Shown piece after piece: positions 40,712-51,228 of a stretch of DNA of 64,000 nt (within the stretch, counting starts at the first letter, position 1; each line of letters starts with the position of its first letter). The DNA comes from an uncultured Alistipes sp. (lineage in GTDB: Bacteria > Bacteroidota > Bacteroidia > Bacteroidales > Rikenellaceae): positions 1 through 64,000 of the forward strand of contig CALUNH010000004.1 of the NCBI GenBank assembly GCA_944321965.1, in the 5' to 3' direction. Under the pieces are notes generated by a model that saw only the letters and a list, made by a program, of their open reading frames with translations, was not told the DNA's origin and ran no database searches. The position numbers were made by a program, and so were the translations under genes.

Positions 40712-41185
40712 TTATGGAAGGGTAACGTCCGTGATCACCAACTGCCCCTTGCGCAGCAGGGCGCGGAACGGAATGATGACGCAGCGATTTTCGTACGTGT
40801 CGAGATAGGCGACGGCATACCATTCGCCCTCGACATGTTCGACCGTGATCGTCGGCAGCGACCGCTTGTTGAAGTCCTGCGCCCGGATGATCGGGTCTCC
40901 GCCGCTCTCTTCCCGGGCCTTTTCCACCTTCCGGCGGGTGGCATCATCCAGGGGCGATGCGGGTTCCGCAATCTCCTCGTCGAAACTGGCCGACATCCAG
41001 CGGGCGTATTCCGTGTAGAACTTTTCCAGGGCTTCCCGGGTTTGTTCCGTGGCGGAGGCGGATCCGGCGGCTGCCTGCGTGGGGGCGGAGATCGTGTTCC
41101 GGGCCGAGGAGGGCTCGGCGGATATGGTTGCGAGGAGCAGCAGAACGAGCGGCAGGAGGTGTTTCATGGCTTGTGTCGGATTCAT
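40712..41185 (-). CDS. Hypothetical secreted protein between the two ChrT halves
   Basis: 157 residues with a clear signal peptide (MKHLLPLVLLLLATISA after a short extension). The mature part is a small mixed alpha/beta domain with blocks like FYTEYARWMSASF and VEHVEGEWYAVAYLDTYENRCVIIPF, which resembles a DUF3828-like or NTF2-type periplasmic domain. Its ATG overlaps the stop of the upstream chrT gene (ATGA), so the two are translationally coupled; an internal ATG at 41167 gives a tidier signal peptide. Function unknown. Confidence 0.72.
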   Translation of the reverse strand: MNPTQAMKHLLPLVLLLLATISAEPSSARNTISAPTQAAAGSASATEQTREALEKFYTEYARWMSASFDEEIAEPASPLDDATRRKVEKAREESGGDPIIRAQDFNKRSLPTITVEHVEGEWYAVAYLDTYENRCVIIPFRALLRKGQLVITDVTLP

Positions 41186-41745
41186 GCTTTCGGTTTGTTG
41201 TTGCGCTTGGCGATCCGCGGGGCGACGGACAACTCCCAGACGATGCCCCCGGCCGCCGCGATCAGCAGGATGTAGATCGGCGACCAGCCCAGCCCCCAGA
41301 CGGCCAGCGCCGAGGCGGCAATGACCGCGAACATCGCCCAGTGCATTCCGCGGGCCAGCGAGATGACCGGTCCGATGATCAGCGCCACGACCGCCGGGCG
41401 CATCCCCTTGAAGGCGGCATCGACGACCGGGTTGTGGCGCACGTCGGCGAAGAAGAGCGCAATGGTCAGCAGGATGACGAACGACGGCAGCACTACCCCC
41501 AACAGTGCGGCGGCCGCCCCGCGCAGCCCGCGGACCTTGTATCCCACGAAGACCGAGGTGTTGAGCGAAATCGGCCCCGGGACCGACTGGGCCAGCGTCA
41601 GCAGGTCGAGGAACTCCTTGCGTTCGACCCACTTCCGGTTGTCGATCACCTCGCGTTCGATCAGGGGGATCATGGCGTAGCCCCCGCCGAAGGTGAAGAG
41701 TCCGATCTTGAAGAACGAGGCGAATATCGTGCGCAGGCGGTTCAT
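41182..41745 (-). CDS. Chromate transporter, single-domain half (ChrT)
   Basis: 187 residues with the CHR signature FGGGYAMIPLIEREVIDNRKWVE and TLAQSVPGPISLNTSVFVGYKVRG. It is the companion of the half at 40117. It begins 12 bases after the HyfI-like gene and is probably transcribed from that gene's promoter at 42544, which puts both halves into the same operon as the orphan Fe-S small subunit. Confidence 0.92.
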   Translation of the reverse strand: MNRLRTIFASFFKIGLFTFGGGYAMIPLIEREVIDNRKWVERKEFLDLLTLAQSVPGPISLNTSVFVGYKVRGLRGAAAALLGVVLPSFVILLTIALFFADVRHNPVVDAAFKGMRPAVVALIIGPVISLARGMHWAMFAVIAASALAVWGLGWSPIYILLIAAAGGIVWELSVAPRIAKRNNKPKA

Positions 41746-41757
41746 CGTTTCAGGGTT

Positions 41758-42522
41758 TTATTCGCGTTTTTTGCGGCCCAGCAGGGTCAGCAGTCCGTCG
41801 ATGTAGGTCATCGGGTGGGTCGGGGCGCCGGGGAGCCAGAGGTCCGGGGTGTGGGTGTCGAGGAACCGCCGGTCGAGGGCCCGGCTTTCGGCGAAGAGTC
41901 CTCCGGAGCACGCCTCCGAACCGCACATCACGAGGATCTTGGGCTCGGCCACGGCGTCGTAGCAGATCTCCAGCGCCTCGGCCATGTTGGCCGAGATGGG
42001 GCCCGAAACGACCACGCCGTCGGCGTGTCGCGGCGAGGCCGTGAATCCGATGCCGAAGCGCCCGAGGTCGAAGTTGACGTTTCCCGTGGCGTTGAGCTCC
42101 ATTTCGACCGAGGCGTCGCCTCCGGCCGAGACTTCGCGCAGCTGCAGCGCCCGGGAGAAGCAGCGCCGGATGGCGGGGCGCACCCGTTCCGGATCGAAGG
42201 GCACATGCGTATCCCCGGCGTGCAGGACGAGCCCCTCGCGCGTGGGCGAACCGATGCGGTAGTCGTTCGTGAAACGCACGTTGCGCGGCGCTACCCGGGC
42301 GCACTCGCCGCAGAAGAGGCAGCGTCCCAGATCGAGCGACAGCGGTTCGGCCGTGAAGGCTCCCGTGGGGCAGATGGCCGCAGCGCGTTCCACCTCTTCC
42401 TTGTCCGGGGTTTCGGTCAGTTCGGGGCGTCCCCGGAACTCTTCGGTCAGTTCAACGGCATCGAGGTCCGGGATTGCCTGCCGTCCGTGGCTGCGCAGGA
42501 CCCGTATTTTCGGAAAAATCAT
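41758..42522 (-). CDS. HyfI/NuoB-like small subunit fused to a ferredoxin-type module, proximal cluster degenerate
   Basis: 254 residues. The N-terminal part has a single 4Fe-4S site: Cys51 (CPTGA) plus Cys68, 71, 74 (CLFCGEC), the pattern of one half-degenerate bicluster ferredoxin. The C-terminal part aligns with the hydrogenase-4/complex I small subunit (VVSGPISANMAEAL, SEACSGGLFAES, LWLPGAPTHPMTYIDGLLTLL). The CxxC that should hold the proximal cluster reads Asp136-Ala-Ser-Val139, and the usual GCPP is GAPT (Ala233), so most ligands are missing. Own promoter at 42544-42574; separated from its natural partners by the pectinesterase gene. Start at 42522 is fixed by that promoter. Confidence 0.85.
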   Translation of the reverse strand: MIFPKIRVLRSHGRQAIPDLDAVELTEEFRGRPELTETPDKEEVERAAAICPTGAFTAEPLSLDLGRCLFCGECARVAPRNVRFTNDYRIGSPTREGLVLHAGDTHVPFDPERVRPAIRRCFSRALQLREVSAGGDASVEMELNATGNVNFDLGRFGIGFTASPRHADGVVVSGPISANMAEALEICYDAVAEPKILVMCGSEACSGGLFAESRALDRRFLDTHTPDLWLPGAPTHPMTYIDGLLTLLGRKKRE

Positions 42523-42687: not shown

Positions 42688-43800
42688 CTACTCCCGGCCC
42701 GGATCGGTGAAGGTAGTGGCCGGAAGCCAGTCGATGGCGTACTCCGTCGCGCTCGTCTTCGCGAAGATCTTCTCCACAGTGTACTCCGCGGCCTCGGCAT
42801 CGGTAAGCTGGCGTCCGCCGTTGGCACGTTGTGCGAGACGGTCGGCCGCGGCCCCCTCGCCCGTACACCGGTATTCGGCGAAGAGGGTCGGGGCAGGTGA
42901 CGTGGACGACATCACGGTCCACCCCTCGGCCTTCAGCGCCGACGGTTCCGTGCAGCGGAGGAAGACCGCACGCGGTTTCGCCTCTTGTGTCGGATACCAG
43001 CCCCGGCCCAGGTGAAAGTAGGAGAATTTCGCACCGTCGAAATCCGTCTCGTCCGACGACGGGAAGGTGATCGTGCAGTCCATGCAGACGATGCCGTACT
43101 GGTGGTCGGCCGGGGTCGACGGGGCCGTCACGACGCTGTTGTTGCGGTTCATGTGGAGCGTGCAGCGATCCAGCAGGATCGTCGACGACCCGAAGATGAA
43201 GTCGACGTTGCCCTCGACGTAGCAGTCGCGCAGGTAGACGCGCCCCGTGCCGCGGCCGTAGAAGGTGTCCTGATAGCCCGTGATGCGGCATCCGTAGAAG
43301 GCTGCCCGGTCGCCCTTGACCTGAACCGAAACGGCCTGCGTATTTTTGTTCACGGCGGTATTTGCCTGGCTGTTGACGTAGGTGTTGGCAATGGTGACGT
43401 TGCTGGCCGTGAAGTCGTTGGCTTCGACCAGGAAGGTCTGGCTTCCCGAAGTGCCGAGGGTTCCGCCTGCACCGTTGTCGCGGCCCGCATAGTCGTCCCA
43501 GGTGATGATGCACGTTGTGGCGTTGTCGCCGATGAGCGTCACGTAGGGGTGCCGCGAGGTCAGGGTTACCTTCTCCTCATAGATGCCCGGGCGCAGGCGC
43601 ACGATGTGGGGTTTGTTGTCCACCGGGAGGGCGTCGAAGGCCTCCTGTACGGTGGTGTAGTCGCCCGAGCCGTCGGCGGCCACGACGACCGTGTGGATCG
43701 GGTCGGAGGGTTCGGGGGTTTCGTCGCCCTTGTCCGATCCGCAGGCGGTCGGGAGGGCGAAGAGCAGCAGCGCTGCCGGAAGCAGGTACAGTTGTTTCAT
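42688..43800 (-). CDS. Pectinesterase (CE8) lipoprotein
   Basis: 370 residues. Signal peptide ends in the lipobox-like TACG (Cys20). The parallel beta-helix carries the CE8 landmarks: GSGDYTTVQEAFDALP, the YQDTFYGRGTGRVYLRDCYVEGNVDFIFG block with both catalytic aspartates (equivalents of YQDT and GTVDFIFG), and FSYFHLGRGWYP (LGRxW). Removes methyl esters from pectin outside the cell. There is no other polysaccharide-utilisation gene around it. A terminator upstream and a -7-like GAACTTTG (about 43832-43839) show a separate transcription unit placed inside the Hyf-like cluster. Confidence 0.92.
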   Translation of the reverse strand: MKQLYLLPAALLLFALPTACGSDKGDETPEPSDPIHTVVVAADGSGDYTTVQEAFDALPVDNKPHIVRLRPGIYEEKVTLTSRHPYVTLIGDNATTCIITWDDYAGRDNGAGGTLGTSGSQTFLVEANDFTASNVTIANTYVNSQANTAVNKNTQAVSVQVKGDRAAFYGCRITGYQDTFYGRGTGRVYLRDCYVEGNVDFIFGSSTILLDRCTLHMNRNNSVVTAPSTPADHQYGIVCMDCTITFPSSDETDFDGAKFSYFHLGRGWYPTQEAKPRAVFLRCTEPSALKAEGWTVMSSTSPAPTLFAEYRCTGEGAAADRLAQRANGGRQLTDAEAAEYTVEKIFAKTSATEYAIDWLPATTFTDPGRE

Positions 43801-43935: not shown

Positions 43936-43966
43936 TGAAAAACCCCGGTCGGTGGAACCGGGGCTT
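43936..43966 (-). terminator. Terminator at end of Hyf-like operon
   Basis: Minus strand CCCCGGT, loop TCCACCG, ACCGGGG, then TTTTT. It lies 21 bases after the stop of the large subunit. Confidence 0.88.
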
Positions 43967-43986: not shown

Positions 43987-45516
43987 TCAGAGGTCGTGGC
44001 CGCAGTAGGAGAGGTTGAAACTCTTGTTGCAGATCGGGAAATCCGAGATTCCCTCGCCGCGCACGGACAGCGCCAGGGCCAGCCAGTTGTGCAGGCTCGG
44101 ATCCTTGATGCGGCAGGCGGCGATGCGCCCCTCGGCGTCGGTCACCACGACGTGGCAGGTCTCGCCCCGCCACCCCTCGACCAGCCCGAATGCGAGCGAC
44201 GAGGGGGTCAGCCGCGTCGTGTGGTCGGGGACGCCGCAGGGGTTTTCGAGATTCCCGTATTTCTGCTCGTAAATCGCTAACAGCCGGTCGATGTAGCGGG
44301 CCGACTGTGCCACCTCGCGGCTGCGGACCGTGAGGCGTGCCATCACGTCGCCCGTCTCCTCGATGACCGGCGTGTGGTGCAGGCACTTGCCGAACGATCC
44401 CCAGGGGTGCGTCGCGCGGATGTCGCGCCCCAGGCCGCTGGCGCGCGCCGCCTGTCCCACGCCGCCGATGCGCCGCATCTCGTCGCGCGGCACCACGCCG
44501 CACTGCTCGAAGCGCGCCAGCAACGAGGGCGACGACTCGATGTCGCGGCGCACCTCATCGTAACGCCGGGCGATTTCGGCCACGTTCGTGCGGATCATCG
44601 CCGAGGTTTCGGCCGTCAGCGGATGGTTGGTGCCGTGGGGGCGGATCAGCCCCTTGCCGAAGCGGTTGCCGCACCACGCCTGCGTGGTGTTGATCGTCAT
44701 CGTGCGCAGCGCCTCGCAGGCCACCTGCCCCAGCTGGTAGCCCGTATCCATCGACAGGGCGCCCGTATCGGCGATCTGCATGGCCATGCGTTCGAGTTCC
44801 AGCGCCACGGCCCGCTCGCGGTCCAGCTGGGCGGGGCGTTCGCGGCCCGTGAGCTTCTCGACCGCCTCGGCGAAGGCCGTGGCGTGGGCTACGGCGCTGT
44901 CTCCGGCTACGGCCTCCGCCAGGCACATCTGGCGCAGCCGGTTTCCCGTTGCGGCGAAGGCCGCCTCCACGCCCCGGTGCTGGTATCCCAGGGCGATTTC
45001 GAGGTGCAGGACCTGCTCGCCGTTGCAGATGAAGCGGAAGGCCCCCGGCTCGATGATCCCGGCGTGGATCGGACCCACGTTGACCTCGTGGAGCGATCCT
45101 CCGGCCATCGTGTAGAAGGGGTAGTTGTCGATCGAGCTGCGGCGGTCGTAGCGGTCGAAGGGAAAGCGCAGCGGCTTGGGCCACGGCTGCCCGTCGAAGC
45201 GCACGCCGTAGCGTTCGGCGATCTCCCGCTCGAAGGGGTGCAGCTGCGGGTGCCGGGCCGTGAGCGACGGAAGGGCCGTTTCGTCGTAGTAGCCCGTGGC
45301 GTGCGAGGTGACGAGTACCCGCCCCTCGGCGTCGTCCAGCACCAGGCAGTAGAAGCGCATCCGGTCGCCGGACGGCAGGGCGAAGTAGTGCGCCACGTGA
45401 TAGCGTTCCTCCTCCAGCCACCCGCACAGCAGGTCGTAGAAGTCGGCGTAGGCGATTTCGGGAATCTCCTCCAGGCGGATGGCTCCCGCGGTATTGTCGG
45501 TTACGAGGCAGTTCAT
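43987..45516 (-). CDS. HyfG/HycE-like large subunit without NiFe ligands
   Basis: 509 residues: an N-terminal NuoC-like domain (1-130) fused to a NuoD/hydrogenase large-subunit domain. Blocks HEVNVGPIHAGIIEPGAFRF and LHLEIALGYQHRGVE are typical of HycE/HyfG. Where true enzymes have the first NiFe-binding CGxC, this reads Ala204-Gly-Asp-Ser207 (in VAGDSAVAHATAF); at the C-terminal CxxC it reads Ser503-Tyr-Cys-Gly506, and there is no C-terminal extension for maturation. It therefore cannot hold a normal NiFe site. Overlaps the HyfF-like gene by 4 bases and ends the operon. Confidence 0.88.
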   Translation of the reverse strand: MNCLVTDNTAGAIRLEEIPEIAYADFYDLLCGWLEEERYHVAHYFALPSGDRMRFYCLVLDDAEGRVLVTSHATGYYDETALPSLTARHPQLHPFEREIAERYGVRFDGQPWPKPLRFPFDRYDRRSSIDNYPFYTMAGGSLHEVNVGPIHAGIIEPGAFRFICNGEQVLHLEIALGYQHRGVEAAFAATGNRLRQMCLAEAVAGDSAVAHATAFAEAVEKLTGRERPAQLDRERAVALELERMAMQIADTGALSMDTGYQLGQVACEALRTMTINTTQAWCGNRFGKGLIRPHGTNHPLTAETSAMIRTNVAEIARRYDEVRRDIESSPSLLARFEQCGVVPRDEMRRIGGVGQAARASGLGRDIRATHPWGSFGKCLHHTPVIEETGDVMARLTVRSREVAQSARYIDRLLAIYEQKYGNLENPCGVPDHTTRLTPSSLAFGLVEGWRGETCHVVVTDAEGRIAACRIKDPSLHNWLALALSVRGEGISDFPICNKSFNLSYCGHDL

Positions 45517-46913
45517 AGCATTGCTATTTGGTCGATCAGTTCACGCAGAAATTCCGGCTGCCAGAGCCCCAGCACCATGGCGGCGACCAGCAGCGAGAGG
45601 GCCGACCACGAGAGTGCCCGGTCGACCTTCGAGGGGTGTAGTTCGTCCTGGTTGGGCTGATAGCAGAGGCGGATCATGCGCGAGCAGAACGAGTAGATGA
45701 CGATGCACAACAGCAGCAGCATCCCCGCGACGAGCCACCATTGGTTTCCGGCGATCGTTTCGCGCAGGATCAGCAGCTCCGAGATGAAGAGCGGCGAGGG
45801 CGGGAAGGCCATCAGGACGACCATTCCGGTGAGCAGCCCCACGGCTCCGACGCGGTTGATGTGGATGTAGTCGCCGATGCGGTTGATGCGGTAACCGTTG
45901 TAGACCTGGCGCACGACGGCCATCTGCAGGAAGAGGCTGCTTTTGACGAAAGTGTGGCAGACGACGTGGAAGACCGCGGCCCAGACGCCGAGACCGCCCA
46001 CGCCGAGACCGATGGCGGCGATGCCCATGTTCTCGACGGTCGAGTAGGAGAGGAACCGCTTGTAGTTGTTCGTGCGGCGCAGGAAGAGCGCCCCGATGAC
46101 GAGCGACAGCACCCCGACGATCAGCAGCACGGAGCGCACCCAGGGGAAGACCTCCGTATCGGCGAGCGCCTTGTAGACGCGGTAGATGGCCAGGAATCCG
46201 GCATTGACCAGCCCCGTGGAGATCAGCGCCGAGGCCGGCGACGGAGCCGCGAAGTTGGCGTCGATGCCCACGGTGTGGAGCGGGAAGAGTTCCATCTTGC
46301 AGCTGTAGCCGCAGAGGATCAGCAGGAAGGCCGTCTTCAGGTAGAGGGCATTTCCGTGCGGGGCGGCTGCGGCGACGGCCGCGTAGTCGAGCGATTCGCA
46401 CTCGGTGGCGGCGGCCAGCAGCAGGATCCCCAGGTAGGCCATGGCGATGCCCGTCGAGCAGACGAAGACGTATTTCCAGGCCGCTTCGAGGGTCTGGGCC
46501 GTGCGCCGGTGGTAGATGATCCCGGCCGAGCAGAGCGTCGTGGCTTCGAGGAAGATCCACGTCACGGCCAGGTTCGAGGCGAAGTAGGCTCCCGTGATGG
46601 CCGTCGTCAGCAGCATCACCAGGGCCGAGTAGGTCCGGGTCTGCGAGAGGTCGTTGTCGCGCAGGTAGGCTTCGGAGTGGAAGTAGGCGAAGGCCGAGAC
46701 GATGCAGAGCAGCACGTAGAAGAGCGTTCCCGCGGCGTCGAAGCGGAACCAGCCGGTCGACTCCGAGCCGTAGAGCCCTCCGGCGAGAATCATTCCGGCG
46801 AAGGCCGCCTGCACGGCGTAGAAGAGCAGTCCGATCTGGAAAAGCTGCCGCTCGCGGCGGACCAGGAAGGCAGTCGAGGCGATCAGGATGCTTGCGATGA
46901 GGTAGGCGATCAT
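45513..46913 (-). CDS. HyfF-like (NuoM/N-type) ion-translocating membrane subunit
   Basis: 466 residues, 13-14 membrane segments of the antiporter-like Proton_antipo_M family. The conserved glutamate is in AVTWIFLEATTLCSAG, one conserved lysine in CGYSCKMELFPLHTVG and another in HTFVKSSLFLQM. These are the residues that carry ions in complex I subunits, so the channel looks functional. Fourth of five co-directional genes; 4-base gap from the HyfE-like gene and 4-base overlap with the large subunit. Confidence 0.9.
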   Translation of the reverse strand: MIAYLIASILIASTAFLVRRERQLFQIGLLFYAVQAAFAGMILAGGLYGSESTGWFRFDAAGTLFYVLLCIVSAFAYFHSEAYLRDNDLSQTRTYSALVMLLTTAITGAYFASNLAVTWIFLEATTLCSAGIIYHRRTAQTLEAAWKYVFVCSTGIAMAYLGILLLAAATECESLDYAAVAAAAPHGNALYLKTAFLLILCGYSCKMELFPLHTVGIDANFAAPSPASALISTGLVNAGFLAIYRVYKALADTEVFPWVRSVLLIVGVLSLVIGALFLRRTNNYKRFLSYSTVENMGIAAIGLGVGGLGVWAAVFHVVCHTFVKSSLFLQMAVVRQVYNGYRINRIGDYIHINRVGAVGLLTGMVVLMAFPPSPLFISELLILRETIAGNQWWLVAGMLLLLCIVIYSFCSRMIRLCYQPNQDELHPSKVDRALSWSALSLLVAAMVLGLWQPEFLRELIDQIAML

Positions 46914-46917
46914 GGTG

Positions 46918-47547
46918 TCAGTCCTTTACGTTGGTCAGCGAATCGGCGTCGTCGGCGTGGAGCTTGTCGTCGATTTTGGTGAAGAAGATGCCCAGCATCA
47001 GCACCGAGATGAGGATGTCGAGCAGGATGGCGAAGTTGATCAGCAGCGGCATCTCCACGCCGATGGCCGTCGAGAAGAGGAACACGCCGTTCTCGATGAC
47101 GAGGAACCCGACCATGTGGGAGAAGATCCGGCGCCGCATGACGATGAGGATCAGGCCGCTCAGCAGCGAGTAGAGGGCCACGCCGAAGAAGACGAGGTCG
47201 ACCGTCGAATCGGCGATGTAGTAGGTCAGCGAGGCGCTCACGGCCAGGGCCACGAGCGAGAGCAGCAGCGACTCCGACTGCGAGGATCCGGAGCGCTTCA
47301 CGCGGTTGATGCGCGTGCGGCGGATCACGGCGAAGAGCAGCCACGGAACCAGAATGCCCTTGAACAGCAGGGTTTCGAGCGCCACGAAGGCCAGTTCGGC
47401 GGGGTTGGCGGCGTGCAGGCGCACGAGCGCGATGCCGAACAGCAGCCAGCCCTGCAGGCCGATCAGCGAGGCGAAGTTGCGGAAACGCTCCGTGATCGAG
47501 AGGTAGACGAGCGTCACGACATAGAGAAGGATCAGCGGCAGAATCAT
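46918..47547 (-). CDS. HyfE-like membrane subunit (NuoK-related)
   Basis: 209 residues with five to six membrane segments. The C-terminal half resembles NuoK/MnhC (MVGFLVIENGVFLFSTAIGVEMPLLINFAILLDILISVLMLG) with the Glu in the ENG turn. HyfE is found in hydrogenase-4 but not in hydrogenase-3, so this cluster is of the Hyf type. Starts 4 bases inside the end of the HyfC-like gene (ATGA). Confidence 0.88.
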   Translation of the reverse strand: MILPLILLYVVTLVYLSITERFRNFASLIGLQGWLLFGIALVRLHAANPAELAFVALETLLFKGILVPWLLFAVIRRTRINRVKRSGSSQSESLLLSLVALAVSASLTYYIADSTVDLVFFGVALYSLLSGLILIVMRRRIFSHMVGFLVIENGVFLFSTAIGVEMPLLINFAILLDILISVLMLGIFFTKIDDKLHADDADSLTNVKD

Positions 47548-48458
47548 TGGAGTCCGATGTTAAGTTGGAGCAGGTAGCCCGTGAAGAAGACCAGGGCGGC
47601 CAGTGCCGTGATGGTGAGAATGAAGGTGGTGTTGCGGACGAGTTTGTTGCGGGCCTGGGTCGACTCGACGATCCCGACCGAGAGCCCCGTGAGCAGGACG
47701 GCCAGCGGTGCCGCGAACCACCACCGCGGGCAGACCGCTGCGGCTACGGCATCGGCCGCCAGCATCGACAGCGCGGCGCTTTTGATCCACGTCGAGATCT
47801 TGATCCAGGCCAGGTCCACGCCGCAGTAGTCGAGGCACATTACCTCGTGGATCATCGTCAGTTCGAGGTGGGTGCGGGGGTCGTCGACCGGCACGCGGCC
47901 GCTCTCCGTGAAGACGATCTTCGTCAGCACGTAGGCCGCCAGCAGCAGCACGACGATGAGTTTCGTATCGCCCGTGGCGTCGGCCTCGAAGATCGACGCG
48001 AAGGAGGTGTGGCCCGAGATCAGCGCCAGGGTTCCGAACGAGAGCATCAGCGCCGGTTCGACCAGTGCGCCGTATAGCGCCTCGCGGCTGGCGCCCATTC
48101 CCTCGAACGAACTGCCGGTGTCCATGGCCGCGAGGATCAGTGCCGTGCGTCCCACGGCCAGCAGGTAGGCGAAGGCCACCAGGTCGCCGTCGAACGAGAT
48201 GACGGGCCGCAGGTCGCCCACCGGGATGAAGAGCATGGCCACGAGCGAGGAGGCCAGGATGACCGACGGGGCCGTGCGGAAGAACGCGGTGGTCGTGGTG
48301 GAGTAGACGGCGCCCTTGCGCAGCAGCAGCCTCACGTCGTAGAGGTGCTGGGCGAAGCGGATTCCCTGGCGGCCGGCGAGCCGGGCCCGCGTGCGGTTGA
48401 TGACCCCCGGGATGCAGAGGGCTGCCAGCAGGATGAGGAGTGTATTGAGCAGTGCCAT
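47544..48458 (-). CDS. HyfC/NuoH-like membrane subunit
   Basis: 304 residues, about eight membrane segments, NADHdh/respiratory chain subunit 1 family. It holds the acidic loop TESGRVPVDDPRTHLELTMIHEVM, which in complex I links the quinone or redox module to the membrane arm. The ATG lies 2 bases after the stop of the HyfB-like gene. It should anchor the peripheral subunits to the membrane. Confidence 0.9.
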   Translation of the reverse strand: MALLNTLLILLAALCIPGVINRTRARLAGRQGIRFAQHLYDVRLLLRKGAVYSTTTTAFFRTAPSVILASSLVAMLFIPVGDLRPVISFDGDLVAFAYLLAVGRTALILAAMDTGSSFEGMGASREALYGALVEPALMLSFGTLALISGHTSFASIFEADATGDTKLIVVLLLAAYVLTKIVFTESGRVPVDDPRTHLELTMIHEVMCLDYCGVDLAWIKISTWIKSAALSMLAADAVAAAVCPRWWFAAPLAVLLTGLSVGIVESTQARNKLVRNTTFILTITALAALVFFTGYLLQLNIGLQ

Positions 48459-48460
48459 GG

Positions 48461-50449
48461 TCAGATGACGTTACAGATCGACAACAGGAATACCAGGACG
48501 AGGAAGGCCAGGGCGAAGAGCACGTAGTGGTTGATCTTGCCCGTGCGCAGGCGCATCACGCGCTGGTTGATCAGGCGCAGCAGCTCGACCCACCACGCCG
48601 AGAAGAGGCGTCCGATACGGTCGCGGTGGCCGATGTCGAAGCGGTGGGCGTCGGGGAAGATCTCGCCCTTGCCCACGGGGGAGCCTTCGCCGCTGTTCTG
48701 GGTCAGCGAGGTGGCGATGGACTGCAGCCCTTCGGAGAAGGATTCGCCGGTGTACTGCATCCGCACGTTCGGCGACGTGAAGCCGCAGCCCCAGGTCGGG
48801 CCTTCGGCCACGCGGCGGCCGTGCAGCGTGCGGCGGCGGAGCCACAGCAGAAGGGCGGCCACGACGATCAGCAGCCAGGCCACCCGCCCGGCGGCCGTGA
48901 GGGTCGGGCTGAGCAGCCAGTCGGCGGCGTCGGCCGGGGTGCGGAGGAAGAATCCCGCGGCGTGTGTCACCCCCGTGACGGCCGCCCGGGGAAAGAGTCC
49001 CACGAAGAGGATCCCGGCCAGCGGCAGCGCCATGGCGGCGATGCGGAGACTGTCGACCTCGGAGGCTTCGGCGACTTCGTGCGAGCGGGGTGCGCCGAGG
49101 AAGACCGTGCCGTAGAGTTTTGTGAAGGCCAGCACGACCAGCCCTCCGATTAGCGCCAGGGCCGCCAGTCCGGCTGCCGAGGCGAGGATGCCGCTCCCCG
49201 AGGCGATCCCGTCGAAGAGCCCGAGGTAGATGAGCAGTTCGGAGATGAAGCCGTTCAGCGGCGGCAGGGCGCAGATGGCCGCCGTACCCGTGAGGAAGAG
49301 GATCGAGGTCAGGGGCATGTGTTTCGAGAGCCCGCCCAGGGCGTCGAGCGACGTGGTGTGCGTTTGCGAGAGGATGTTCCCGGCGCCGAAGAAGAGCAGC
49401 GACTTGAAGAACGAGTGGTTGAGCGTGTGGAGCAGCGCCCCGGCCATGCCGCACAGCGCGACGAGCTGGTTGCCGGAAGCTTTCCCGAGGGCCGCGACGC
49501 CTGTGGCGAGGAGAATCACGCCGATGTTTTCGATCGAGGAGTAGGCCAGCAGGCGTTTCACGTCGTTCTGCGTGGCGGCGAGGATCACGCCCCAGAGTCC
49601 GGTGACGATTCCCAGCACGAGGAGGATCACCCCGGCGGTGTGCAGCACGGGCTGATCGCCCAGCGCCGCCACGGTGCGCAGGATACCGTAGACGCCCGTC
49701 TTGATCATCACGCCCGACATCAGGGCCGAGACGTGGGACGGGGCGGCGGGGTGCGCCTCCGGGAGCCAGACGTGCATCGGGAACATGCCGGCCTTCATGC
49801 CGAATCCGGCGAGGAAGACCAGGAAGAGCGGCAGGGCCTTCTGCGTGCGGAAATAGTCGCCCAGGGCATCGAAGGTCGCCGAGCCGCAGGCGGCGTCGAG
49901 GCGCACGAATCCCACGACGAGCAGCACGAAGCCGATGTGCATCATGATGAGGTAGGCCAGGGCTGCGCGGCTCACCTCCCGCCGCTGGGCGTCGTAGAGG
50001 ATCAGCAGGAACGACGCCACGGTCATCAGTTCCCAGAAGAAGAGGAACGAGAAGCCGCCGTCGGAGCAGACCACGCCCAGCATGGCGTAGTACATGACGG
50101 TGAGCGAGGCGTAGTGCAGCGAGACGTGGGCCGGGGATTTCGTGGCGAGGGTGTGGGCCAGGTAGCCCCGCGAATAGAGCACCGAGGCCACGGCTCCGAC
50201 CGAGATCAGCACCGCGAAGAGCGCCGAAAGGGGATCCAGCGACCCCGTGTCGCCGCCGAGCGGCGAGGCGGCCACCGACCACAGCACCTCGGGGGTGCCT
50301 CCGGCGAGTACGCCGAGGGCCCGGACCGTGATCCACAGGGCTCCGGCGGCCGTCAGCGTGAAGGCTGTCCAGACCTTGGCACGCAGCGGCGACGCGAAGA
50401 TCGCGGCGGCGATGAGGACCAGGAACAGAAGCGTGTAGAGAAAAAGCAT
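48461..50449 (-). CDS. HyfB-like (NuoL/M-type) ion-translocating membrane subunit
   Basis: 662 residues, about 16 membrane segments. First gene of the Hyf-like operon. Key ion-path residues are kept: Glu140 in FFWELMTVASF, Lys219 in GFGMKAGMFPMHVWLPEAHPAAPSH, Lys250 in GVMIKTGVYG and a lysine in NHSFFKSLLFFGAGN. The C-terminal tail has EGPTWGCGF, a HyfB trademark. The start at 50449 gives a normal first membrane helix. It lies 50 bases after rsmE on the same strand; no promoter is obvious in that gap, so it may be transcribed with rsmE. Confidence 0.92.
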   Translation of the reverse strand: MLFLYTLLFLVLIAAAIFASPLRAKVWTAFTLTAAGALWITVRALGVLAGGTPEVLWSVAASPLGGDTGSLDPLSALFAVLISVGAVASVLYSRGYLAHTLATKSPAHVSLHYASLTVMYYAMLGVVCSDGGFSFLFFWELMTVASFLLILYDAQRREVSRAALAYLIMMHIGFVLLVVGFVRLDAACGSATFDALGDYFRTQKALPLFLVFLAGFGMKAGMFPMHVWLPEAHPAAPSHVSALMSGVMIKTGVYGILRTVAALGDQPVLHTAGVILLVLGIVTGLWGVILAATQNDVKRLLAYSSIENIGVILLATGVAALGKASGNQLVALCGMAGALLHTLNHSFFKSLLFFGAGNILSQTHTTSLDALGGLSKHMPLTSILFLTGTAAICALPPLNGFISELLIYLGLFDGIASGSGILASAAGLAALALIGGLVVLAFTKLYGTVFLGAPRSHEVAEASEVDSLRIAAMALPLAGILFVGLFPRAAVTGVTHAAGFFLRTPADAADWLLSPTLTAAGRVAWLLIVVAALLLWLRRRTLHGRRVAEGPTWGCGFTSPNVRMQYTGESFSEGLQSIATSLTQNSGEGSPVGKGEIFPDAHRFDIGHRDRIGRLFSAWWVELLRLINQRVMRLRTGKINHYVLFALAFLVLVFLLSICNVI

Positions 50450-50499: not shown

Positions 50500-51228
50500 T
50501 CAATCGTTGCGGGGCAGGAGATTTACCGTGGCGGTCATGACCGTGGCCACGACGGCGGCCGTTTCGGTGCGCAGGCGCTGGGGTCCGAGCGTGATCTCCT
50601 CGAAGCCGTGCGACAGCGCGAAGTCGATCTCTTCCGGCGAGAAGTCCCCTTCGGGTCCGATGAAGATCCGCACGGCCTCGCCCGGACGCAGGGTCGCGGC
50701 GAGGAGTGCCTTGCCGTTTGGCGTGTGCGGCGGCTCGCAATGGGCGATCAGGCTGCGGCCCTCGAAGGGAGCCGATGCGGCCTCGCGGAACGGCGTCAAC
50801 CCGGCCAGCTCCGGACGGTAGGCCTTCAGCGACTGCTTCATCGCCGCGGTGATCACCTTTTCGCCCCGCAGGGGCTTGAAGCTCCGCCGTTCGCTGTGGG
50901 CCGTTTCGAGCGGCACGATCTGCGTGACGCCCACCTCGGTGGCCTTTTCCAGAAACCATTCGAAGCGGTCGGGGTTCTTCGTCGGGGCCACGGCCATCAC
51001 CAGGCGGTAGGGCATCTTCTCGAATTCGGGGTGAGTCTCGACGATCCGCACCGTGCAGCGCCGCGGGTCGGCATCGGTGATCTCGGCCCGGCAGAGGTTC
51101 CCCCGGCCGTCGGTCAGGTGGATCGTGTCGCCGCACCCGAGCCGCAGCACGCGGACGCAGTGTTTCGACTCCTCTTCGCCCAGCGTGTACAGGGGCGGTT
51201 CGAGATCCGGAGCATAGAAGAGTTGCAT
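50500..51228 (-). CDS. rsmE: 16S rRNA (uracil1498-N3)-methyltransferase RsmE
   Basis: 242-residue SPOUT-class (knotted) methyltransferase with an N-terminal PUA-like domain. Landmarks: KHCVRVLRL near the N-terminus, AVAPTKNPDRFEWFLEKATEVGV, and the knot motif IFIGPEGDFSPEEIDFA followed by LGPQRLRTETAAV. Methylates U1498 in the ribosomal decoding region. Divergent from the M3 peptidase genes and directly upstream of the Hyf-like operon. Confidence 0.95.
   Translation of the reverse strand: MQLFYAPDLEPPLYTLGEEESKHCVRVLRLGCGDTIHLTDGRGNLCRAEITDADPRRCTVRIVETHPEFEKMPYRLVMAVAPTKNPDRFEWFLEKATEVGVTQIVPLETAHSERRSFKPLRGEKVITAAMKQSLKAYRPELAGLTPFREAASAPFEGRSLIAHCEPPHTPNGKALLAATLRPGEAVRIFIGPEGDFSPEEIDFALSHGFEEITLGPQRLRTETAAVVATVMTATVNLLPRND

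Follow-up and report, generated by a model that had tools for sequence, protein, structure and literature searches.

On the minus strand of the window, by which the whole analysed stretch of 64,000 nucleotides from an uncultured Alistipes sp. is meant, lie genes for a large and a small subunit of hydrogenase type together with a set of membrane subunits. The features are given below with the evidence on which each assignment is based.

41758..42522, minus strand: EhrS/HyfHI-like fused ferredoxin and small subunit, 254 aa (alignments, predicted model)
42688..43800, minus strand: pectinesterase-like gene between the large- and small-subunit genes (Pfam)
43938..43963, minus strand: terminator-like hairpin and T run just 3' of the large-subunit gene (read directly; -18.5 kcal/mol, z -3.5)
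43987..45516, minus strand: EhrL/HyfG-like large subunit, NuoC remnant plus NuoD, 509 aa, without NiFe ligands (Pfam, alignments, AlphaFold2)
45513..46913, minus strand: HyfF-like antiporter subunit, 466 aa (sequence comparison)
46918..47547, minus strand: HyfE-like (NuoK-related) membrane subunit, 209 aa (sequence comparison)
47544..48458, minus strand: HyfC/NuoH-like membrane anchor, 304 aa (Pfam)
48461..50449, minus strand: HyfB-like antiporter subunit, about 662 aa, its start an internal ATG of a longer ORF (sequence comparison)
50500..51228, minus strand: rsmE-like RNA methyltransferase, upstream and outside the complex (synteny conserved in the genus; Pfam of the syntenic gene in locus L064)

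The hairpin at 43938..43963 was not among the listings of the consensus terminator scan. The pectinesterase-like gene was considered as a partner of the complex and rejected, since among the loci compared no others than the window, L037 and L038 have it interposed between both genes; in these three related genomes a hairpin, too, stands between them. Past the 3' end of the small-subunit gene, at 40712-41632 on the minus strand, an ORF of 306 aa without Pfam match, possibly a shadow ORF, has similar counterparts in several close relatives. In genome G007 the small-subunit gene (C11:50321-51079) is located on a different contig from the large-subunit gene. HyfB-like antiporter subunits form a tandem pair in many Ehr operons (L052, L076, L078, L080, L082, L085, L093 and others) and are single in the Alistipes type.

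The large subunit comprises a NuoC domain (PF00329, residues 56-117) and a NuoD domain (PF00346, residues 265-502), and the top solved match to its family profile was E. coli HycE (7z0s_E, E 5.4e-67), which is also the closest fold to the AlphaFold2 model (pLDDT 84, pTM 0.88, TMq 0.83); pocket geometry is not to be read from this model, in which the pocket stretches 146-158 and 503-509 have pLDDT below 50. Aligned with E. coli HyfG, HycE and NuoCD, A204-G205-D206-S207 takes the place of the hydrogenase CGIC and S503-Y504-C505-G506 that of CYSC, and the same ligand columns were obtained by hmmsearch of the family against HycE and MbhL. None of the four NiFe-ligand cysteines is kept (A204, S207, S503, G506), exactly as the earlier note had read these positions, and C505 lies outside them. 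The comparison was extended to 101 Ehr-type large subunits, namely 80 loci from a contig scan (the best 80 of at least 576 relatives), 20 genome stretches and the window, and throughout these alignments the two CxxC motifs that hold the NiFe centre in group 4 [NiFe] hydrogenases were absent, no intact pair being placed at the ligand positions. D206 was found in 101/101, S503 and G506 in 100/100 (one row is truncated), and Cys at position 204 in eight of the 101, neither the window nor others of its genus among them. As the same replacements recur in all rows compared, they are neither chance nor sequencing error. In 100/100 rows the protein stops at column 509, which bears out the reported lack of a maturation peptide; we take this end to be the point where the maturation protease trims a hydrogenase. 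HypD, needed for NiFe maturation, was present in seven of 24 genomes outside the genus and in none of 37 genomes of the genus, many of which are drafts, with the window's own genome 85% complete. The missing ligands and the HypD count both support the proposal that the complex would be unable to make or use hydrogen, and 'hydrogenase-4' or 'formate hydrogenlyase' as names for these genes mislead, as had been cautioned.

Passages of four papers describe Ehr by the loss of the NiFe cysteines (PMC10284858; PMC10432482; PMC7304191; PMC6349859), its function is called unknown in print in two of them (PMC10284858; PMC10432482), and HydDB, in the part of its description concerned, leaves Ehr out of the hydrogenases (PMC5037454). 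The pointer to Ehr in the earlier note was right: the Ehr-type rows share the ligand loss, and the window groups with Ehr of other phyla. The loss in the large subunit is hence already described for Ehr, and what is new here is a second loss, by which the small subunit is deprived of its proximal-cluster ligands as well.

In the small subunit the ligands of the proximal [4Fe-4S] cluster are replaced by D136, V139, E203 and A233, and the ferredoxin part keeps C51, C68, C71 and C74, so that one ferredoxin-type cluster site is left. The proximal cluster corresponds to N2 of complex I, and the retained site, to go by the usual pairing of ferredoxin cysteines and the cluster numbering of complex I, presumably is the middle link of the three-cluster chain. 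The protein aligns with HyfI, HycG and MbhJ, and hmmsearch against the solved MbhJ (6cfw_J) gave the same four columns 136/139/203/233; its predicted model (pLDDT 85, residues 144-150 below 50) folds like NuoB/PSST, HycG and MbhJ. Among 96 rows the proximal quartet is CCCC in 40, namely 38 Ehr rows and the E. coli proteins HyfI and HycG; NuoB has LCCC, and 55 rows have at most one Cys. The main set of 93 Ehr small subunits, drawn largely from the best 80 of at least 576 relatives with six of these 80 loci yielding no small subunit, thus contains 38 with intact and 55 with lost proximal ligands. Replacements in the lost rows follow a pattern: position 136 is Asp in 52 and position 203 an acidic residue (Asp or Glu) in 54, position 233 is taken by Asn, Ala or Thr in 52, and position 139 is still Cys in 27. 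D-C-D-N is the commonest quartet outside Alistipes (25/96 rows), and Alistipes-type rows as a rule have Val/Ile and Ala/Thr within the quartet. Cys 51/68/71/74 were present in 54 of the 55 lost rows, the exception being L056, which is without the domain, and column 78, a Cys of the other ferredoxin cluster, is occupied by it in 5/54 lost rows versus 33/38 intact rows. Judged by these sequences, the Ehr complex of the window belongs to a Bacteroidota subtype that appears to have lost the path by which electrons reached the former active site. In open-licence literature, a scope outside which the founding Ehr papers fall, no report of an Ehr without proximal cluster was found, one query having returned mostly dinitrogen chemistry. 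Proximal ligands are not stated as Ehr-defining in the excerpts of the literature consulted, and they were found here in most other phyla.

The nearest named relatives of the window belong to Alistipes, with 'Candidatus Alistipes faecavium' (L061) at 81% identity, among the matches listed (best 80 of at least 576). Ehr was found in 21 and a NuoD-type complex I in four of the 37 genus genomes, and Ehr is therefore usually the sole superfamily member detected in the genus; its presence in 21/37 also means that the complex is dispensable. The genome of the window itself holds at G000:C17 (L006) a separate nuoABCDHIJKLMN set with no nuoEFG beside it. Of 395 sampled Bacteroidota genomes, 17 had a clear Ehr, with a score of roughly 398 bits or higher to the A1 profile.

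Trees were built on the large subunit and thereby without the columns of the trait itself, which lies in the small subunit; both were quick searches with SH-aLRT support only, from which near-copies had been removed by hand (16 rows in the first, 25 in the second). HyfG and HycE, the only hydrogenases included, split from Ehr at a starred support of 100. Since this outgroup is intact, absence of the proximal ligands is read as loss. Losses are found mainly in one Bacteroidota clade, which in the first tree comprises 46 rows (40 lost, six unknown, none intact) at a starred support of 100. Outside it stand, as separate losses, L139 (Planctomycetales) and L056 (genome G048), both single sequences from draft genomes, L056 in addition a long branch with a warning; their quartets are NEEW and DCDD, respectively. 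Proximal ligands are kept in Ignavibacteriales and some other Bacteroidota. The first tree needs three state changes and the second four, of which the starred branches force at least three. Seven loci were added in the second tree: L141-L142 represent the L056 type with its ligands intact, L145-L147 are intact, and the intact Bacteroidota row L144 joins the lost clade with poorly supported placement. Locus L074, titled Phycisphaerae, is nested among Bacteroidota, which may reflect a transfer or faulty binning.

The large-subunit pocket is retained irrespective of this loss. Columns conserved to at least 97% number 105 in the 38 intact rows and 91 in the 55 lost rows, with 79 common to both, and 30 of these 79 are unlike both HyfG and HycE, including E173, D206, D250, N497, K498, S503 and G506. 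H151, at the position of the quinone-site His of NuoCD, and E156, aligned with MbhL E21, are each found in 101/101 Ehr-type large subunits, and the position of the quinone-site Tyr is Gly in 100/101. A pocket that stays the same whether the proximal cluster is present or absent should do work that does not depend on electrons from that cluster, and this is our central inference. In the membrane part, HyfB keeps the positions of TM5 Glu, TM7 Lys, TM8 Lys and TM12 Glu, presumably charged channel residues, and Glu and Lys were also read in HyfF.

The genes of the complex are under purifying selection. Pairwise dN/dS (Nei-Gojobori) of the window versus L037, L038, L039 and L041, in this order, came to 0.088, 0.189, 0.235 and 0.208 for the large and 0.094, 0.125, 0.197 and 0.216 for the small subunit, and lay between 0.028 and 0.336 for the membrane subunits; the neighbouring rsmE gave 0.197, 0.276, 0.283 and 0.275, and the pectinesterase 0.259 and 0.177 (versus L037 and L038 only). 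The earlier expectation that the complex performs 'another reaction, or none' becomes more precise in this light, 'none' being disfavoured by purifying selection together with a strictly conserved, Ehr-specific pocket.

Neighbouring genes, called crudely as longest ORFs, were scanned with Pfam in 114 of 146 cases (64/83 nearest, 50/63 second nearest). HTH_17 (14/64) and EIIA (13/64) recurred, and the few other recurrent families had two genes each. A gene coding for a fusion of an HTH with a PTS EIIA(Ntr-type) domain stands by the operon in 24/44 intact versus 1/55 lost loci, both lower bounds given that several loci are cut upstream; examples are L104:3161-3928, with 23 other intact loci, and L139. 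This hints that intact Ehr operons are controlled through the nitrogen-type phosphotransferase system. In E. coli, potassium transport is a target of EIIA-Ntr proteins, and the adjacency may be a hint of ion homeostasis, for the intact type only. SulP-type anion transporters lie near six Ehr loci (L071:11417-13087, L073:5998-8199, L144, L107, L126, L142), directly downstream in L071 and L073, which are proximal-cluster-free, the other four being intact; six are too few to read. For the Bacteroidota subtype the neighbour genes give little clue.

Known Ehr complexes (EhrABCDLS of Geobacter, and those of comammox Nitrospira, ammonia-oxidising archaea, CPR and Saganbacteria) likewise combine a NiFe-ligand-free large subunit with Hyf-type membrane subunits, and the loci of Geomonas and Geobacter argillaceus share family, gene order and pocket signature with the window. 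However, these two and most other non-Bacteroidota Ehr loci keep the four proximal Cys, which the window does not. With hydrogenase-4 and formate hydrogenlyase of E. coli, the HyfG/HycE complexes, it has in common the fold, the fused NuoC/NuoD layout and the subunit set, but the NiFe ligands, the C-terminal extension and the proximal ligands are missing, and the operon is without hyfD and hyfA. Another group 4 relative without NiFe function is MBS/MBX of Pyrococcus, a sulfane sulfur reductase. A proximal cluster held by three Cys is the catalytic centre of MBS, which is without a Glu equivalent to MbhL E21, according to the part of the source concerned (PMC7684303); the window, in contrast, lacks the three-Cys cluster and its family has E156 at that position. 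Respiratory complex I shares homologous NuoB, CD, H, I and antiporter subunits, whereas the window lacks the quinone-site Tyr and the N2 ligands, and complex I-like or MBS-like chemistry was rejected on account of these missing ligands. Related antiporter subunits are also found in Mrp Na+/H+ antiporters, from which the window differs by its hydrogenase-type soluble module; Mrp MNHE was detected in none of the 37 genus genomes. Mrp works without electron transfer, a mode of action that is proposed for the present complex as well.

The loss of the proximal ligands in the small subunit argues against any reaction that needs electrons delivered to the pocket. From an anatomy of ligand losses, a single cluster site, a conserved pocket and conserved membrane subunits we infer a mechanism to which we assign about an even chance, that of an ion translocator triggered not by electrons but by the binding of protons or a ligand in the pocket. 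The complex would move ions, H+ and perhaps Na+ or K+ in exchange, like its Mrp cousins, and the conserved pocket residues H151, E156, D206, K498, S503 and Y504 would serve either to accept and give off protons or to hold a ligand that is not redox-active. Such protonation or binding would trigger the membrane arm, a part that in complex I is commonly ascribed to the protonation of quinone, and the remaining [4Fe-4S] cluster may be structural or a redox switch gating transport. Counted against this reading were the strict conservation of the retained cluster site, which could mean redox chemistry elsewhere, the D-C-D-N quartet outside Alistipes, where an unusual metal site is possible, and the hairpin and pectinesterase gene in the species of the window and the split contigs in G007, which could be early decay.

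A smaller though appreciable chance is given to a redox enzyme with a new terminal site, in which ferredoxin or another donor would feed the remaining [4Fe-4S] cluster and this a nearby acceptor outside the old pocket, driving the membrane arm. The near-universal retention of the four cysteines of that cluster in lost rows speaks for it, and Rnf/Nqr components in 37/37 genus genomes mean that ferredoxin/NADH electron transport exists; yet both neighbours in the wire, the proximal ligands and the Cys at position 78, are missing in most rows, and the invariant large-subunit pocket would be left without evident reason. We consider it unlikely that the former proximal site binds another metal or cluster through Asp, Glu, Asn and Cys, by which electrons would still reach the pocket. 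The non-random residues at ligands 1, 2 and 3 (positions 136, 139 and 203) would suit such a site, but the window quartet D, V, E, A offers two possible ligands, and the Val/Ile and Ala/Thr of most Alistipes-type rows fit it no better.

A decaying remnant without function would explain the ligand loss, the operon broken in a few Alistipes genomes and the patchy presence in the genus. It was rejected on dN/dS well below 1 in all subunits and on conservation, that is, intact frames and 79 near-invariant columns common across an old and diverse clade, and we hold it to be very improbable. Slighter still is the chance that the complex serves a formate dehydrogenase as its membrane partner, which passages on Saganbacteria and relatives propose for those lineages (PMC6349859) and which the increase of Geobacter Ehr proteins on formate, in the part of the report concerned, would allow (PMC7894505). 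The molybdopterin oxidoreductase family PF00384 was found in none of the 37 genus genomes, many of which are drafts, in which a single absence weighs little, and was also absent from G054 and G059, Ehr-bearing genomes of other families; for this genus the coupling was rejected on the count of 0/37. An equally faint prospect is a complex I-like quinone reductase, for which the match of H151 to the quinone-site His speaks, and against which stand the Gly at the Tyr position and the loss of the N2 ligands.

The translocator triggered from the pocket touches a long-standing debate on complex I, namely by what means the redox chemistry of the soluble arm brings about distant proton movement in the membrane arm. 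A natural relative that keeps pocket and pump and is without the last cluster of the wire lets redox and pumping be separated. That Ehr with and without a proximal cluster have one common pocket suggests that the job of this pocket needs no such electrons, and if ions are still moved, pocket protonation or ligand binding alone would be able to run the membrane arm.
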